A DNA stretch of 35,945 nucleotides, from positions 1 to 35,945 of the IMG/VR virus record IMGVR_UViG_3300047494_000056; one strand, 5' to 3'. Source of the stretch: a virus. Below the pieces are notes generated by a model, which saw only the letters and a list, made by a program, of their open reading frames with translations, was not told the origin of the DNA and made no database searches. Of this stretch, positions 2,492 through 13,429 are shown piece by piece. A program made the position numbers and the translations under genes. Position 1 is the first letter of the stretch, and each line of letters opens with the position of its first letter.

Positions 2492-2709
2492 CCCCCCAGG
2501 AGACCCGCCGCGTCGGCAGGATCGGCGCCGACGTCCTCACACCACAAGAGCGGCGCTTGGCCATCCGCGAGGCCGACGCCTGGGCCGACCTCCGCCATCG
2601 CCGGACGTTCCTCTATGGCGACGCCGACGCACGCTTGGTGGCCGCCGCGCCTGATCTCGCCAAGTGGAACGCCCTCGGCGACCCGATCCGGACCGAGGCG
2701 CAGACATGA
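2488..2709 (+). CDS. Hypothetical protein between nuclease and helicase-methylase (73 aa)
   Basis: ATG 2488 overlaps the nuclease stop, and the stop overlaps the next ATG, so the gene is translationally coupled on both sides. The product is charged and helical (QERRLAIREADAWADLRHRR) with no transmembrane segment or metal motif. I do not recognise it. Confidence 0.6.
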   Translation: MTPQETRRVGRIGADVLTPQERRLAIREADAWADLRHRRTFLYGDADARLVAAAPDLAKWNALGDPIRTEAQT

Positions 2710-5324
2710 CCGACGCCTATCAGGCCTTTCTCGAAGCCAAGGCGCCGGTGGCCGTCTCGCGCGGCCTCGCGCTCGACATCAGCGCCATCAATCCGATCCT
2801 GAAGCCGCACCAAGCCGCAATCGTCCGTTGGATGGTCGAGGGTGGTCGCCGCGCCTGTTTCGCGGCCTTCGGGCTCGGCAAGACGATCATGCAACTCGAG
2901 GCCATGCGGCTGATCTTGGAGCGCGAAGAGGGCCGCGGTCTGATCGTACTCCCTCTCGGCGTCCGCCAGGAGTTCGCTGAAGATGCGGCAAAGCTCGGCA
3001 TGAAGGTCAGGTTCATCCGCCGCATCGAGGAGGTTGACGACGACTGTAGGCTCTACCTCACCAACTACGAGACGATCCGCGACGGCAAGATCGACCCGGC
3101 CCACTTCGTCGCCGCCAGCCTGGACGAGGCGAGCGCGCTTCGCGGGTTTGGCGGAACAAAGACCTTTCGCGAGTTCATGGCGCACTTCGCCGGAGACGAT
3201 CGCAAGGCTGGGACCAAGAGCGCGGGGCTGAAATATCGCTTCGTCGCCACCGCGACGCCCTCGCCGAACCAATACATCGAGCTGCTCGCCTATGCGGCCT
3301 TCCTGGGCATCATGGATGTCGGCGAGGCGAAGACGAGGTTTTTCAAGCGTAACAGCGAACACGCCGACCAGCTCACGATCCACCCGCACAAAGAGCGCGA
3401 GTTCTGGCTTTGGATCGCGAGTTGGGCGGTCTTCATCCAGAAGCCATCGGACCTCGGCTTTGACGATACTGGATACGACATGCCGCCCCTCGACGTGCGG
3501 TGGCATGAAGTCCCGACCGATCACACGACGGGCGCCGGTTTTGAGCGCGACGGCCAAGCCCGGCTGCTGCGCAACTCGGCGATCGGAATAACGAATGCCG
3601 CGCGGGAGAAGCGCGATAGCCTCGGCTCGCGCATCGCCAGGATGGAAGCCATCCGCGCCGAAGAGCCGGACGAGCATCGGATCATCTGGCACGACCTCGA
3701 GGCCGAGCGCCGCGCCATCGAAGCTGCGATACCGAGCGCGGTGACCGTCTACGGCTCGATGAGCGACGACGACCGGGAGGCCGCGATCATCGGTTTCCGG
3801 AACGGCGAGGTCGCCGAGATGGCGGGCAAGCCGGTGATGATCGGCTCCGGCTGCAATTTTCAGAAGCACTGCGCCCGGGCGATCTTCCTCGGGATCGGCT
3901 TCAAGTTCAACGATTTCATCCAGGCGATCTACCGTATCCAGCGCTTCGGCCAGCTGCGCGACGTGCGGATCGACATCATCTACACGGAAGCCGAGCGCGA
4001 GGTCCGCCGCGCCCTGGAAGACAAGTGGACCCGGCACAACGAAGCCGCCGCCATCATGGGCGACATCATCCGCGAGTACGGGCTTTCCAGCGGTGCGCTG
4101 GTCGGCGCGATGACGCGCTCGATCGGCTGTGAGCGCCAAGAGGTTCGGGGCGACAACTACAGGGTGATCCTCAACGACACCGTGGTCGAGTGCCGCGACA
4201 TGCCGTCCGACAGCATGGACCTGATCGTCACCTCGATTCCCTTCGGCACGCAGTACGAATATTCGCCCAGCTACAACGACTTCGGCCACACCGACGACGA
4301 CGTCCACTTCTGGCGTCAGATGGATTTTCTCACGCCGAACCTATTGCGGGTGCTTAGGCCAGGTCGTGTGGCCGCCATCCACGTCAAGGATCGGATCGTT
4401 CCCGGGGGCATCAACGGGCTGGGCTTTCAGACCGTCAGTCCGTTCTCGGATGATTGCGTCGCCCACTTCCGCAAGCACGGCTTCGCATTCCTCGCGCGGC
4501 GCACGATCGTCACCGACGTGGTGCGGGAGAACAACCAGACCTACCGACTGGGCTGGACCGAGCAACTCAAAGACGGCTCGCGAATGGGCGCCGGCATGCC
4601 GGAATACGTCCTGCTCTTCCGCAAGCCGCCGACGGACTTGTCGAACGGGTACGCCGATGATCCGGTCGTCAAGGCGCGGCCGGACTATGTGACCAACGAC
4701 GGAGACTCGGTCGCCTATGACGGCCGGCGTCGGGACATCAAACCCGTTCAAGGTACGGGCTACAGCCGCGGTCGCTGGCAACTCGACGCTCACGGGTTCT
4801 GGCGCTCATCTGGCGATCGACTTCTAACCGCCGACGACCTGAAGGGCCTGGACGCCTCGACGATCTACAAGGTCTGGCGCGAGCGGAGCCTGACGGAACC
4901 TTACGACCACGAAGGCCACGTCGCGGTGTGCGAAGGCCTGGACGCGCGCGGAAGCCTGCCGCCCGACTTCATGCTGTTGCCTCCGGCGTCCTGGCATCCG
5001 GACGTCTGGACCGACGTGACACGCATGCTGACGCTCAACGGTCAGCAATACGCCAAGGGCCAAGAGGCGCACCTTTGCCCCCTACAATTCGACATCGTCG
5101 ATCGGCTGATCCGCCAGCACTCGATGCCAGGCGAGACGGTGTTCGATCCATTCGGGGGCCTGATGACCGTGCCGTACCGGGCATTGAGGCTCGGCCGGAA
5201 GGGCGTCGGCGTCGAGCTCGACATCAAGGCGTTTCGCGATGGCGCCGCTTACTGCGAGGCGATGGCTCGTGAGCTTTCGACACCCAGCCTGTTCGATCTT
5301 CTCGAAACGCGCGAGGCCGCATGA
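2706..5324 (+). CDS. SNF2-like ATPase fused to an N4/N6 DNA methyltransferase (872 aa)
   Basis: I chose ATG 2706, which overlaps the previous stop. The N-terminal half is a SNF2/superfamily 2 ATPase: Walker A AFGLGKT (about 54-60), DEAS box (140-143), ATATPSP motif III (181-187) and the arginine-finger motif QAIYRIQRFGQ (406-416). The C-terminal half is a methyltransferase with its motifs in permuted order: the catalytic loop TSIPFG (509-514) comes before the S-adenosylmethionine loop VFDPFGG (812-818), as in beta-class or N4-cytosine enzymes. The loop reads SIPF where most enzymes have (D/N/S)PPY. Likely roles are modification of phage DNA coupled to DNA tracking, perhaps to evade restriction or to methylate during replication. 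No nuclease domain is visible. Confidence 0.85.
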   Translation: MTDAYQAFLEAKAPVAVSRGLALDISAINPILKPHQAAIVRWMVEGGRRACFAAFGLGKTIMQLEAMRLILEREEGRGLIVLPLGVRQEFAEDAAKLGMKVRFIRRIEEVDDDCRLYLTNYETIRDGKIDPAHFVAASLDEASALRGFGGTKTFREFMAHFAGDDRKAGTKSAGLKYRFVATATPSPNQYIELLAYAAFLGIMDVGEAKTRFFKRNSEHADQLTIHPHKEREFWLWIASWAVFIQKPSDLGFDDTGYDMPPLDVRWHEVPTDHTTGAGFERDGQARLLRNSAIGITNAAREKRDSLGSRIARMEAIRAEEPDEHRIIWHDLEAERRAIEAAIPSAVTVYGSMSDDDREAAIIGFRNGEVAEMAGKPVMIGSGCNFQKHCARAIFLGIGFKFNDFIQAIYRIQRFGQLRDVRIDIIYTEAEREVRRALEDKWTRHNEAAAIMGDIIREYGLSSGALVGAMTRSIGCERQEVRGDNYRVILNDTVVECRDMPSDSMDLIVTSIPFGTQYEYSPSYNDFGHTDDDVHFWRQMDFLTPNLLRVLRPGRVAAIHVKDRIVPGGINGLGFQTVSPFSDDCVAHFRKHGFAFLARRTIVTDVVRENNQTYRLGWTEQLKDGSRMGAGMPEYVLLFRKPPTDLSNGYADDPVVKARPDYVTNDGDSVAYDGRRRDIKPVQGTGYSRGRWQLDAHGFWRSSGDRLLTADDLKGLDASTIYKVWRERSLTEPYDHEGHVAVCEGLDARGSLPPDFMLLPPASWHPDVWTDVTRMLTLNGQQYAKGQEAHLCPLQFDIVDRLIRQHSMPGETVFDPFGGLMTVPYRALRLGRKGVGVELDIKAFRDGAAYCEAMARELSTPSLFDLLETREAA

Positions 5325-6972: not shown

Positions 6973-8474
6973 TGGGTCTCGCTCCCCTCCTAGATCTTCG
7001 CCCCGCGCCCGACCCGGCGCTGGATTGGCGACGTGCGTCGGGCACTCTCGACAGCGGCGCACCCGCGCCCGTCGACATTCCCCATGTCCCGGCCAACATC
7101 GAGGCCGAGCAGGCGCTCCTGGGCATCCTGCTCTACGACAACGCGGCGTTCGAGCGGGTCGAGGACCTGGCCGGCGAGCATTTCTATGAACACTTCCACG
7201 GTCGCCTGTTCGACGCGATCGCGGACGCCGTTCGTCGCAACGTCCTGGCCGAGCCGATCTTGCTTGCCGAGCGCTTCAAGGACGATCCGGCATATATCGA
7301 GCTCGGAAGCGTCCGATACCTCGCCAATCTGGTCGATGTGGCCCCGCCGTCGTCCAACGCGGCGGACTACGCGCGGGCGATCCGCGAGACCCATCGGCGG
7401 CGGGAAATCCTCAACGTCGCCTACGACATGGCCTTGGCCGCCAAAAGCGGGGCCACCGAATCCATCGAGATCATCGAAGCGGCCGAGCGACAGCTGTTCG
7501 ATCTCACCGAGACGCGCGCGAAGACCTCGGGGTTCTCGGCTCTGGCCGGCTCCCTCCATGCCGCGATGTCCTCGGCCAAGGCGGCCTACGAACGCGGCGG
7601 CGGGATCACCGGGATCACGACCGGTCTGATCGATCTCGACCGGAAGCTGGGCGGCCTCCACGATTCCGACCTCATCATCATCGCTTCCCGGCCCTCGATG
7701 GGGAAGACATCGCTCGGCCTGAACATCGCCGACGCCGCCGCCAAGTCCGGCCGGGACGTCGGGTTCAATTCTCTCGAGATGTCGGACGAGCAGCTGGCCC
7801 TGCGCCTTCTCGCGGAGAAGGCCTCGATCCCGTCGGACGTCATCCGCCGCGGTGCTTTGCAGGGCCGGGACTTCTATCGCCTAGAAGAGGCGGCGGAGCG
7901 GCTGGAGACGCTTCGCATCCACATCGATCCGACCGGCGCCATCCCAATCTCCAAGATCGCGGCCCGCGCCCGTCGCTTGAAGCGCACCAAGGGTCTCGAC
8001 CTCCTCATCGTGGACTATCTGCAGTTGGCCACGAATGGCGGCAAGCCGGAGAACCGCGTCCAAGAGGTCTCCGCCATCTCGGCCGGGCTGAAGGCGATCG
8101 CCAAGGATCTATCGATCCCCGTGGTCGCCCTGGCCCAGCTCTCCCGACAGGTCGAAAGCCGAGACGACAAGCGGCCGAACCTCGCCGACCTCAGGGATAG
8201 CGGCAGCATCGAGCAAGACGCCGACGTCGTCATCTTCATCTACCGCGAGGCCTACTACCTGGCCCGCTCAGAGCCTGCCGAGGGAACCGAAAAGCACGTC
8301 GATTGGCAGGAGAAGATGGAGCGCTGCCGCAACGTCGCGGACCTCATCATCGCCAAGCAGAGGCACGGTCCGATCGGCACGGTCAAGGTCTCTTTCGACG
8401 AGGCCCTGACCAAGTTCGGCAACCTCGCGAGAGACGATCCCCATCCGCCGTATAATCCGGGGGCGGGGGGGTGA
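6972..8474 (+). CDS. dnaB: Replicative DNA helicase, DnaB family
   Basis: The 500-residue product matches DnaB from end to end. The N-terminal DnaB domain starts at IEAEQALLGILL (43-54) and a linker-helix region precedes the RecA-like motor. Walker A SRPSMGKT is at 239-246, SLEMS with catalytic E269, Walker B LLIVDYLQL at 344-352, the sensor ALAQLSRQVESR at 387-398, and the DLRDSGSIEQDADVV block near 407-420. It would unwind DNA at the phage fork as a hexamer. The first 35 residues are an extra Pro/Ala-rich extension. It is coupled to its neighbours on both sides, and the loader-like gene lies 1.1 kb downstream. Confidence 0.97.
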   Translation: MGLAPLLDLRPAPDPALDWRRASGTLDSGAPAPVDIPHVPANIEAEQALLGILLYDNAAFERVEDLAGEHFYEHFHGRLFDAIADAVRRNVLAEPILLAERFKDDPAYIELGSVRYLANLVDVAPPSSNAADYARAIRETHRRREILNVAYDMALAAKSGATESIEIIEAAERQLFDLTETRAKTSGFSALAGSLHAAMSSAKAAYERGGGITGITTGLIDLDRKLGGLHDSDLIIIASRPSMGKTSLGLNIADAAAKSGRDVGFNSLEMSDEQLALRLLAEKASIPSDVIRRGALQGRDFYRLEEAAERLETLRIHIDPTGAIPISKIAARARRLKRTKGLDLLIVDYLQLATNGGKPENRVQEVSAISAGLKAIAKDLSIPVVALAQLSRQVESRDDKRPNLADLRDSGSIEQDADVVIFIYREAYYLARSEPAEGTEKHVDWQEKMERCRNVADLIIAKQRHGPIGTVKVSFDEALTKFGNLARDDPHPPYNPGAGG

Positions 8475-9364
8475 GCATCCATCTTCACCACGACGGCCTA
8501 TCGCGCCCGCTGGACAGTCCGCAGCTCCGCCTGTTGAGCCTCGGCGTCGGTGTCCAGTCCACGACGCTGGCGTTCATGGCCGCGCGCGGCGACGTCGGCC
8601 CGATGCCTGATGCGGCGATCTTCGCCGACACCCAGGCCGAGCCGGCGCACGTCTATCGCTACCTCGCCTGGCTCGCGCCCCAACTGCCGTACCCGGTCAT
8701 CATCGCGAGCGCGGGAGACCTGGAAGCCGACACCCTCGCAGGGTTCAATTCGACCGGACAGCGCTACGCCAGCATTCCGGCCTTCGTGCTCAATGAAGCT
8801 GGCAAGGTCGGGATCACGCGTCGCCAGTGCACCAAGGAATATAAGCTGGAGCCCATCGTCGCCGAGACCCGGCGCATGCTCGGCTTGGCCAAGGGCCGCT
8901 CGATCCGCCACCACCTGAAGCTCAAGCGCGCCGAGCCGACACCACGCATCGTGGAACAGTGGATCGGCATCTCGACGGATGAGATCGAGCGCATGGCGCG
9001 GAGCCGGACGCCCTACATCCACAATCGCCACCCGCTAATCGAGGCGCGGATGTCGCGCCGTGACTGCGAGGCCTACCTCGCGGAGCGCCAGATCAGGGTT
9101 CCGAAAAAGTCGGCCTGCGTCTTCTGCCCCTTCAAGACGAACGCCGAATGGCTCGACCTTCAGGTCAGCGAGCCGGAGGACTTCGCCCGGGCCGTGACCG
9201 TGGATCGAGCTATCCGCAACGGCAACCCGTCCAAGGGGATGCGCGCCACCGTGATGGCGCTCCACCGCTCCCTTCGGCCCCTGGAAGAGATCGACTTCGC
9301 CGCCGAGCAGGAAGACCCCCGCTTCGGCTTCGCGAATGAGTGTCTCGGGATGTGCGGCGTATGA
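8471..9364 (+). CDS. PAPS-reductase-like PP-loop protein
   Basis: The product begins with the pyrophosphate-loop LSLGVGVQSTT (22-32), then the FADTQAEP segment and a conserved RRQCTKEYKLEP motif (C120). A CVFCP pair follows at C216/C219, and the protein ends in NECLGMCGV (C291, C295), an ending I associate with phage proteins annotated as phosphoadenosine phosphosulfate reductase. Such enzymes adenylate a substrate and are related to DndC and other sulfur-transfer enzymes; the phage substrate is unknown. A basic insertion sits at about 146-160. GTG 8471 overlaps the dnaB stop. True sulfate assimilation is unlikely in this setting; base or tRNA modification is a reasonable guess. Confidence 0.8.
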   Translation: MSIHLHHDGLSRPLDSPQLRLLSLGVGVQSTTLAFMAARGDVGPMPDAAIFADTQAEPAHVYRYLAWLAPQLPYPVIIASAGDLEADTLAGFNSTGQRYASIPAFVLNEAGKVGITRRQCTKEYKLEPIVAETRRMLGLAKGRSIRHHLKLKRAEPTPRIVEQWIGISTDEIERMARSRTPYIHNRHPLIEARMSRRDCEAYLAERQIRVPKKSACVFCPFKTNAEWLDLQVSEPEDFARAVTVDRAIRNGNPSKGMRATVMALHRSLRPLEEIDFAAEQEDPRFGFANECLGMCGV

Positions 9365-10765: not shown

Positions 10766-11424
10766 ACACCGACACACTCGCGCGACCGCCGTTGTCCAAT
10801 GCCCAGCGCAAGCGCCTCCGCAAGGAACGTCAAGCCAGCACCAAGTGGGAGGCGAAGACCGGCGCCAAGGCCATCAAAGCCCCGAGTGCTGCAGCCGATG
10901 CCCAACCCCATCCTGGCATTGATCCCGAGAGCGTCGCGCTGCCTGTCAATGGCGACATCCGACTCAACCGCGACGCTGCACACCGCATCGTCCGCGCCCG
11001 ACGCCAGGACGTCTTCGATCTCTTCCAGGCTCGCGGCAAGCTGAGCCCCGGCGCCTATGACGCAGTTCGTCGGCTGCAGGATGACATCGCCGTCCTCCAC
11101 AAAGTGGTCAGTGGAGGAGGAGACCTCACGCCGCGCGTTGATCGAACGTCCAAGCCACAGTCGTTCACTGACGCTCGGCTCGCGGCTGGTGCTAGGATCG
11201 AGGAAGTCCTTAACCGCGCCGGCCCCGCCAGCGCGCGCCTCCTGGTCGCCCTGTGCGAGCCCGCCGTCGTCGAGGGTAGGGGAGCTGACTGGCGCGAAGT
11301 CGTGGCCAGGGTCACCGGAGAGCGCCTCCCTGACGCCCAGGGCGCTATCCTCCGTGTCGCTTGCGAAAATCTCGCCGGAGCTTATCAGCATGCGTCAAGC
11401 CGCCGCACCCAACCCAATATATAG
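10762..11424 (+). CDS. Conserved-looking phage protein, end of early operon (220 aa)
   Basis: The product has a basic Lys/Arg-rich N-terminus (AQRKRLRKERQASTKWEAK), a middle segment with RIVRARRQDVFDLFQARGKL, and a compact helical C-terminal domain containing FTDARLAAGARIEEVLNRAG and WREVVARVTGE. Similar C-terminal blocks occur in alphaproteobacterial phage proteins, but I cannot name a function. The basic start suggests nucleic-acid binding. It is coupled to the CtrA-like gene by an ATGA overlap and is the last gene before the junction region. Confidence 0.65.
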   Translation: MNTDTLARPPLSNAQRKRLRKERQASTKWEAKTGAKAIKAPSAAADAQPHPGIDPESVALPVNGDIRLNRDAAHRIVRARRQDVFDLFQARGKLSPGAYDAVRRLQDDIAVLHKVVSGGGDLTPRVDRTSKPQSFTDARLAAGARIEEVLNRAGPASARLLVALCEPAVVEGRGADWREVVARVTGERLPDAQGAILRVACENLAGAYQHASSRRTQPNI

Positions 11425-11528: not shown

Positions 11529-11605
11529 TGCGGGATAGAGCAGTCCGGTAGCTCGTCTGACTCATAATCAGAAGGTCGTCGGTTCAAACCCGACTCCCGC
11601 ACCCA
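11529..11605 (+). tRNA. tRNA with anticodon CAU (Met-type, initiator-derived body)
   Basis: A full cloverleaf is visible: acceptor TGCGGGA/TCCCGCA (7 pairs), D stem GAGC/GCTC, anticodon stem TCTGA/TCAGA with loop CTCATAA (CAT at 11563-11565), variable AGGTC, T stem GTCGG/CCGAC with loop TTCAAAC, then C73 and an encoded CCA. Length is 77 nt. The body resembles bacterial initiator tRNA, including A11:U24 and A72. However, position 1 is U, so 1:72 is paired, and two of the three G:C pairs of the initiator anticodon stem are lost (U29:A41, A31:U39). It therefore probably works in elongation, or as Ile-CAU if modified. Confidence 0.93.
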
Positions 11606-11754
11606 CCCAAACAGCGCCCGGCAACGCGACGCCCTCCAGCGCCCGCTATACGCCCGCGCAACCTCAGCCGTTGGCCGTGGCGCTGTTCACCTTCTGTTTC
11701 AGGATTGAACGCCGCCCCAGCGGCTCGCTCCAGGTTGAGAAAGCCGCTAGCAAT
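11606..11754. other. Leader region before the terminase genes; no gene seen
   Basis: This stretch between the tRNA and terminase small subunit has no supported gene. An in-frame upstream extension of the terminase frame reaches 11671 but its residues look unlike a terminase start. No clear promoter was found. A cos or pac site would be expected in or near here, but I cannot identify one by eye. Confidence 0.4.
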
Positions 11755-12252
11755 ATGACGGCCAAGAAAACGCCAGAGCAGAAGGCGGAATCAAACCCGG
11801 TGGGTCGCCCGAGCAAATACGACCCGGCGTTCTGCGTCACCGCCATGGAGATCATGGGGCAGGGTTATTCCGAGACTGTCCTGGCCGGAGAGATCGGCGT
11901 CTGCATCGACACGATCACTGATTGGAAGAAGGCGCATCCCGAATTTTCCGCATCCGTTCACGTGGCGCGCGCGAAAGGCCTTCGATTTTGGGAGGATCGA
12001 CTTCGTCACGTCGCTGAGAAGGGCGGCGGTCCGGGCACTGCTCAGGCGGTCATATTCGGCTTGCGAAACAGGGCGCCGGAATCATGGAGCGACACGCAAC
12101 GCCGCGAACTGAGCGGTCCGAACGGCGGACCTATTGAGCACGCCGCAGACGGTGACTTCCTCGCTGTCGCCCGAGCGTTGGGCGGCCATGCGGCCGGACC
12201 AGCAAGCAGCGCTGGGGATGATGGCCCAATGGAGAGCGGCCGCAAGACCTGA
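11755..12252 (+). CDS. terS: Terminase small subunit
   Basis: I chose ATG 11755 (MTAKKTPEQK) because the protein then begins directly before the typical VGRPSKYDPAFC segment. The N-terminal half holds a helix-turn-helix (YSETVLAGEIGVCIDTITDW, about 38-57) for recognising the packaging site. The middle (WEDRLRHVAEKGGGPGTAQ...FGLRNRAPESW) is typical of phage terminase small subunits. It would bind phage DNA and recruit the large subunit, whose gene overlaps its 3' end by up to 119 bp. The Shine-Dalgarno is weak. Confidence 0.85.
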   Translation: MTAKKTPEQKAESNPVGRPSKYDPAFCVTAMEIMGQGYSETVLAGEIGVCIDTITDWKKAHPEFSASVHVARAKGLRFWEDRLRHVAEKGGGPGTAQAVIFGLRNRAPESWSDTQRRELSGPNGGPIEHAADGDFLAVARALGGHAAGPASSAGDDGPMESGRKT

Positions 12253-13429
12253 TCAGCTGACGCCGGTCGGCGAGTGGCTGGTCTGGCTCATTCAGGCGGG
12301 CCGCGGTTGGGGGAAGACCCGGACCGGCGCGCAGGACGCGGCGATCTTCGGCCTGGCCAATCCGGGGTCCAGGCTCGCGGTTGTAGCGCCGACCTATTCG
12401 GACGCGAGAGACACCTGCGTTGAGGGCGACAGCGGACTACTCGGCATCCTCCCGCAGGTTTGTGTGAGGGCGTGGAATAGGTCGCTCGGCGAGCTGATCT
12501 TGGTAAACGATACCCGCTACAAGCTGTTCTCGGCGGACGAGCCGGAGCGTCTTCGCGGGCCACAGCATCACCGGGCATGGGCAGACGAGGTTGGCGCCTG
12601 GCGCTATCCGGAGACGTGGGATCAACTCCTCTTCGGTCTGAGACTGGGGCGATCGCCGAGGGTCGTGGCCACCACGACGCCGCGCCCTACGAAACTGATC
12701 CGCTCTTTGGTGGACTCGCCCACGACGATCATCACGCGCGGGTCGACGTTCGACAATGCCGCCAATCTTGCGGCATCGACGCTGGCGAGCCTAAAAGCGA
12801 GGTACGAGGGTACGCGGCTAGGTCGCCAGGAATTGGCCGGCGAGCTTCTCGGCGACACGCCGGGCGCCCTCTGGACGCTTGAGCGAATAGACGAGCTTCG
12901 CATCGACTTTCTGCCGAAGCTTCGAAGGATAGTCGTCGCGATCGACCCCGCCGTCACCTCAGGTGAGGATGCCGACGAGAGCGGGATCATCGTAGCCGGA
13001 ATCGGTATGGAGAACCCGCCGCACGGCTACGTCCTTGAAGATTGCAGCATTCGAGGAACGCCCGACGAGGTGTGCCGACGCGCGGTCAGGGCTTACCATC
13101 AATGGGGAGCGGACCGCGTGGTCGCGGAAGCGAACAACGGCGGCGACTGGATCGAGTCTCTTCTTCGAACAGCCGATCCAGATATCAGCTTCCGCAAGGT
13201 GACCGCGAGCCGGGGGAAGGTGACGCGAGCCGAGCCGTGCAGTTCGCTTTACGAGCAGGGTCGGTTCCACCATTGCGGGACGTTCCCGGCCCTGGAAGAC
13301 CAGCAGACAGCCTTCACGACGGACTTCGACGCGAAGAAAGCCGGCTACAGCCCGGATCGAGTCGATGGCCTTGTTTGGGCGCAAACCGAGCTATTCGGCG
13401 GGACGGGGATGAGCTTCTCGACGCTGTAG
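12134..13429 (+). CDS. terL: Terminase large subunit (packaging ATPase-nuclease)
   Basis: The protein carries the packaging motor and headful/cos nuclease. From the TTG at 12134, Walker A GRGWGKT is at 56-62, Walker B AWADE ends at D151-E152, the coupling motif ATTTPRP follows at 179-185, and the RNase-H-like nuclease shows VVAIDPAV (D271), VVAEANNGGD and the late acidic PDRVDGLVW (D408, D411). It docks on the portal. The start is uncertain: GTG 12152 and ATG 12188 are in frame; I kept the earlier start because SPERWAAM...WRAAARPDQLTP fits the family's N-terminus. That makes an unusually long overlap with terS. Confidence 0.95.
   Translation: MSTPQTVTSSLSPERWAAMRPDQQAALGMMAQWRAAARPDQLTPVGEWLVWLIQAGRGWGKTRTGAQDAAIFGLANPGSRLAVVAPTYSDARDTCVEGDSGLLGILPQVCVRAWNRSLGELILVNDTRYKLFSADEPERLRGPQHHRAWADEVGAWRYPETWDQLLFGLRLGRSPRVVATTTPRPTKLIRSLVDSPTTIITRGSTFDNAANLAASTLASLKARYEGTRLGRQELAGELLGDTPGALWTLERIDELRIDFLPKLRRIVVAIDPAVTSGEDADESGIIVAGIGMENPPHGYVLEDCSIRGTPDEVCRRAVRAYHQWGADRVVAEANNGGDWIESLLRTADPDISFRKVTASRGKVTRAEPCSSLYEQGRFHHCGTFPALEDQQTAFTTDFDAKKAGYSPDRVDGLVWAQTELFGGTGMSFSTL

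Follow-up and report, generated by a model that had tools for sequence, protein, structure and literature searches.

The phage locus and its tRNA gene

The window, by which we mean the whole stretch of DNA analysed (an IMG/VR virus record of 35,945 bases, 65% G+C), is a 36-kb contig of a contractile-tailed phage, with genes for DnaB helicase, terminase, portal, contractile-tail sheath and baseplate. ARAGORN identified a single tRNA gene in it, tRNA-Met (cat), which lies between an open reading frame (ORF) ending at 11424 and the terminase small subunit gene, with the terminase genes starting shortly downstream. The start of the small subunit gene at 11755 was inferred from sequence; the listed ORF begins at 11671. 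Neither a sigma-70-like promoter nor a terminator was found adjoining the tRNA gene. Features of the locus are given below.

11529..11605, + strand: tRNA(CAU), initiator-type, with encoded CCA (11603-11605) (ARAGORN, Rfam RF00005, cloverleaf fold)
11529, + strand: U1, partner A72 at 11601, a weak pair replacing the usual 1-72 mismatch (sequence)
11539, + strand: A11, partner U24 at 11553, the initiator-specific D-arm pair (sequence)
11558..11560, + strand: U29 G30 A31, partners U39 C40 A41 at 11568-11570, with G30:C40 the sole remaining G:C of three (sequence)
11563..11565, + strand: anticodon CAU in an unchanged CUCAUAA loop (ARAGORN, sequence)
11601..11602, + strand: A72 and discriminator C73 (sequence)
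11755..12252, + strand: terminase small subunit (PHROG 309, E 7e-31, for ORF 11671-12252)
12134..13429, + strand: terminase large subunit (Pfam Terminase_6N and Terminase_6C)

No conserved tRNA-terminase arrangement was found among kin of the phage: ARAGORN detected no tRNA in the examined stretches of 49 terminase relatives or of Komagataeibacter phage phiKX1, the nearest phage by tail genes, and the tRNA gene is therefore not conserved in the lineage. Nor was similarity to the terminase large subunit found in seven other contigs carrying similar tRNAs. The one pointer to the host, the Komagataeibacter phage tail genes, hints that it may be alphaproteobacterial. Resembling the window, two other phage contigs (L220 2187 and L004 3994), one of which was assigned to a Bacteroidia MAG, have an initiator-type tRNA adjoining the gene for the terminase large subunit. 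Elsewhere in the window, an ORF of 886 residues (2664-5324) carries a C-terminal DNA methylase domain, its first 500 residues being without a Pfam match, and a gene at 8471-9364 is related to phage phosphoadenosine phosphosulfate reductase-like proteins (PHROG 424, E 4e-40).

Sequence and class of the tRNA

The presence of a tRNA-CAU gene at 11529-11605, claimed in a preliminary description of the locus, was borne out by ARAGORN, by a match to the Rfam tRNA family RF00005 (65.8 bits, E 2.6e-12) and by the minimum-free-energy fold, which is a full cloverleaf (-26 kcal/mol, z -2.3 versus shuffles). The bases named there (U1:A72, A11:U24, U29:A41, A31:U39 and C73) were likewise correct throughout. 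The gene reads TGCGGGA TAGAGCAGTCCGGTAGCTCG TCTGA CTCATAA TCAGA AGGTC GTCGG TTCAAAC CCGAC TCCCGCA C CCA. All stems are fully paired, and each replacement in the anticodon stem is accompanied by a complementary one on the opposite strand, a sign of selection acting on the fold.

Much of the molecule is initiator-like, namely the D arm (GAGC ... GCTC), A11:U24, the acceptor pairs G2:C71, C3:G70 and G4:C69, the AGGTC variable loop and the CUCAUAA anticodon loop. Against the E. coli tRNA-fMet sequence, 64 of 77 bases are identical, and blastn against annotated E. coli tRNA-Met genes gave 85.5% over 76 nt. The metY/metZ type of E. coli tRNA-fMet shares the D arm, A11:U24, G2:C71, C3:G70, G4:C69, G30:C40 and the CUCAUAA loop, and differs in having C1xA72 where the window tRNA has U1:A72, G:C pairs where it has U29:A41 and A31:U39, and A73 where it has C73. 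The closest named relative is a tRNA-Met, noted as tRNA-fMet, of Caulobacter phage CcrSC (MH588547.2, L123; 87.5% over 80 nt), which has in common with the window tRNA the initiator body, U1:A72, U29:A41, G30:C40, C73 and an encoded CCA, but keeps G31:C39 and belongs to a 317-kb jumbo phage.

Per-position log-odds scores were calculated from 120 initiator-type and 123 elongator-type CAU tRNAs among the matches listed, nearly all from viral contigs. The window tRNA scored 72.5 (initiator median 72.2, elongator median -85.7), and its placement was unchanged when columns fixed by the search patterns were left out (54.9 versus a median of 55.5). There was no overall shift towards elongators, although a few positions, including 31 and 39, lean that way. 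A11 and U24 occurred in 120/120 initiator-type and 0/123 elongator-type tRNAs listed, as follows from the class definition. With a mid-initiator score and the D arm and acceptor stem kept, the derivation of this tRNA from a bacterial initiator tRNA, as previously proposed, is well supported by sequence comparison.

Derivation is distinct from membership of the canonical class. Of the canonical initiator features, the tRNA has purine 11 : pyrimidine 24 together with the formylation determinants G2:C71, C3:G70 and G4:C69, and lacks an unpaired 1-72, three G:C pairs at 29-31:39-41 and A73; because these defining features fail, we would not classify it as a canonical tRNA-fMet. Equally, it lacks the strong 1:72 pair and the pyrimidine 11 : purine 24 of elongator tRNA-Met. 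The A31:U39 pair that is common in elongators is present, though not exclusive to them.

Anticodon stem and acceptor end in relatives

When viral contigs were scanned with a pattern in which positions 29-31 were unconstrained, 83 distinct initiator-type tRNAs were obtained among the matches listed. Pair 30:40 was G:C in all 83, while 29:41 (A:U 43, G:C 23, U:A 17) and 31:39 (G:C 73, C:G 8, U:A 1, G:U 1) varied. A second viral scan for the A31:U39 form returned 35 distinct sequences, the window tRNA counted in, and G30:C40 was retained in 34 of them. None of these 35 carried a strong 1:72 pair (G:C or C:G), compared with 71/83 A31:U39 elongator-type tRNAs listed (P = 5e-20); as with all counts and P values from these scans, independence is overstated because viral sequences share ancestry, the scans fix part of the sequence, and some contigs may hold host DNA. 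Among viral elongator-type CAU tRNAs listed, 1:72 was G:C in 102/123 and A31:U39 was present in 83/123. The most changed anticodon stems of initiator type thus still occur with a weak or mismatched acceptor end, as expected of relaxed initiators and not of elongators.

The A31:U39 initiator-type pattern matched 39 viral contigs and 3 GTDB contigs, suggesting that such tRNAs are largely a viral feature. The three GTDB matches came from a looser pattern, the strict one giving no match in GTDB contigs; one has terminase and portal genes beside the tRNA and the other two may be cellular. In proteobacterial initiator genes among the matches listed, the anticodon stem was always AGG:CCU or GGG:CCC. 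The combination of U1:A72, U29:A41, A31:U39 and C73 was seen in the window alone among the sequences gathered.

At the acceptor end, a credible strong (G:C) 1:72 pair was found in none of ~130 distinct viral initiator-type CAU tRNAs among the matches listed, an apparent G1:C72 in one (L088) having been excluded by eye as a misparse. U1:A72 was present in 20/128 (~16%) of the distinct initiator-type tRNAs among the matches listed, and a pyrimidine at 73 was enriched alongside it (7/20 versus 6/108, P = 0.0008; the data that suggested this association also served to test it). Proteobacteria were then sampled separately: of 398 genomes, 179 had a match to an initiator pattern leaving out position 1, and U1:A72 initiators were present in two of the 179 (G346 and G352). 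Their genes (G346:C6:85-157 and G352:C32:95620-95941, L379-L382, the latter genome with three tandem copies) share U1:A72, a pyrimidine at 73 and an encoded CCA with the window tRNA, but have U73 in place of C73 and all three anticodon-stem G:C pairs in an intact GGG:CCC stem. In each genome a looser pattern detected exactly as many initiator genes as there are U1:A72 genes, and all copies read carry U73. As U1:A72 initiators were the only ones found in these two genomes, U1:A72 alone does not appear to abolish initiator function.

The earlier remark that C73 is unusual needs qualifying: it is rare, yet natural in initiators, occurring in 4/200 sampled proteobacterial genomes under one initiator pattern (A73: 68/200). 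In a nearest-neighbour model of the acceptor stem, the probability of 1:72 pairing was 0.73 for U:A with C73, 0.81 for U:A with A73 and 0.998 for an elongator G:C pair. The stem end is made less stable by pyrimidine discriminators, and the formylase recognises initiator tRNA in part through a fold-back induced by U73 (PMC4477674). Most simply, pyrimidine 73 would compensate for the weak U1:A72 pair, so that the end can still open.

Possible roles in infected cells

Phage tRNA-fMet is already known as a kind, and the window tRNA adds a new variant to the initiator-type tRNAs encoded by phages. On balance, we favour the view that this phage tRNA, taken from a bacterial initiator, most likely still initiates in infected cells, in a relaxed form. 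It would be charged with methionine and at least partially formylated, assisted by G2:C71, C3:G70 and A11:U24, which promote formylation (PMC7949028) and are all retained here. It would then enter the ribosomal P site, supplementing or replacing the host initiator. Pairs 30-40 and 29-41 are contacted by A1339 and G1338 of 16S rRNA, and a change of 30:40 to C:G brings a 20-fold loss in vivo (PMC11497404); G30:C40, the pair that A1339 would grip, is the sole anticodon-stem G:C retained. The weak U1:A72 pair and pyrimidine 73 should fray the acceptor end somewhat as the usual mismatch does, and a degree of leaky elongation is a plausible by-product. The phage might benefit from a supply of initiator during infection or from replacement of a host initiator cut by, e.g., VapC, both being possible.

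Several points stand against initiation. The tRNA lacks two features by which initiators are defined, a 1-72 mismatch and the three G:C pairs. In vitro, the E. coli initiator reportedly became able to elongate once a single base change had closed 1:72 (Seong and RajBhandary, 1987). A73 is a formylation determinant of E. coli tRNA-fMet (PMC9976931), from which C73 departs. Finally, the E. coli 3GC mutant (U29C30A31:U39G40A41) is charged and formylated but initiates poorly (PMC2268962); it shares U29:A41 and A31:U39 with the window tRNA, which differs from it by G30:C40, U1:A72 and C73.

More tentatively, with odds that we put a little below even, these tRNAs could form a natural phage class of minimal initiators: selection would retain no more than an openable 1:72, the initiator D arm and G30:C40, with pyrimidine 73 offsetting a weak U1:A72. 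Of those found, the window tRNA would then be pared back furthest, amounting to a natural 3GC mutant that still has G30:C40. Requirements for initiator tRNA have so far come mainly from mutants of E. coli tRNA-fMet, and phage initiator-type tRNAs offer a natural mutation series, which points to 30:40 and an openable 1:72 as indispensable and to 29:41, 31:39 and base 73 as negotiable. If confirmed, the class would provide a direct test of the G30:C40 model and would bear on why phages keep their own start tRNA.

The strongest competitor, which we nevertheless consider unlikely, is an elongator or truly dual-use tRNA-Met, in which U1:A72 allows EF-Tu binding and lowers formylation, the two lost G:C pairs lower P-site preference, and mainly internal AUG codons are read. 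U1:A72, U29:A41 and A31:U39 do all shift towards elongator tRNA-Met, the last being the majority form in the viral elongators listed. Dual use has a precedent in human mitochondrial tRNA-Met, which likewise has a weakly paired 1-72 end, is partly formylated and serves both roles (PMC7949028), although its pair is G1-U72 and it is the sole tRNA-Met. Set against this are the D arm, acceptor stem and G30:C40, which remain initiator-like, and the lack of a strong 1:72 pair in all 35 A31:U39 initiator-type tRNAs as opposed to most of the elongators listed. Conversion to an elongator, as originally suggested, is consequently not favoured over a relaxed initiator: 1:72 is a weak U:A, and G30:C40, A11:U24, G2:C71, C3:G70 and G4:C69 are all kept.

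Less probable again is a spare initiator retained because host nucleases that target tRNA-fMet (some VapC toxins, for instance) would fail to cleave it, owing to its altered anticodon stem; this reading concerns purpose and is compatible with continued initiation. An earlier study put forward phage tRNAs as a means of evading tRNA-cutting defences, but its proposal rests on changes in the anticodon loop, and it notes that phages generally avoid encoding tRNA-fMet where it is targeted (PMC10264068). The loop is unchanged here, so only the altered stem, in which A31:U39 closes the loop, could confer resistance. A decaying or neutral passenger gene without function would fit the lack of tRNAs in the examined stretches of the terminase relatives and the nearest tail-gene phage, as well as the failure to find a promoter-like site beside the gene; perfect stems and matched anticodon-stem changes make it improbable. 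Last, the CAU anticodon would allow a tRNA-Ile2 reading AUA through conversion of C34 to lysidine, as had been raised, but A73 is an isoleucine determinant, the tRNA carries C73 on an initiator body, and AUA accounts for ~15 of roughly 10,300 codons in the window (a count that includes one short ORF one base out of frame, ~160/10,294 codons), so this very improbable reading was rejected.

Other variants were also recorded among the sequences gathered. Four viral initiator-type tRNAs (L138 3360, L142 3764, L143 2801 and L158 4038) combine G1:U72 with A31:U39, recalling the dual-use human mitochondrial tRNA-Met. One tRNA-fMet gene of E. coli strain H2 (L341 20-96) has U39 facing G31, such that a G:U pair replaces one of the three G:C pairs in the anticodon stem. 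A single viral contig (L098, 1472 and 1548) carries two adjacent initiator-like CAU tRNA genes, with elongator-type CAU tRNAs in the same locus.
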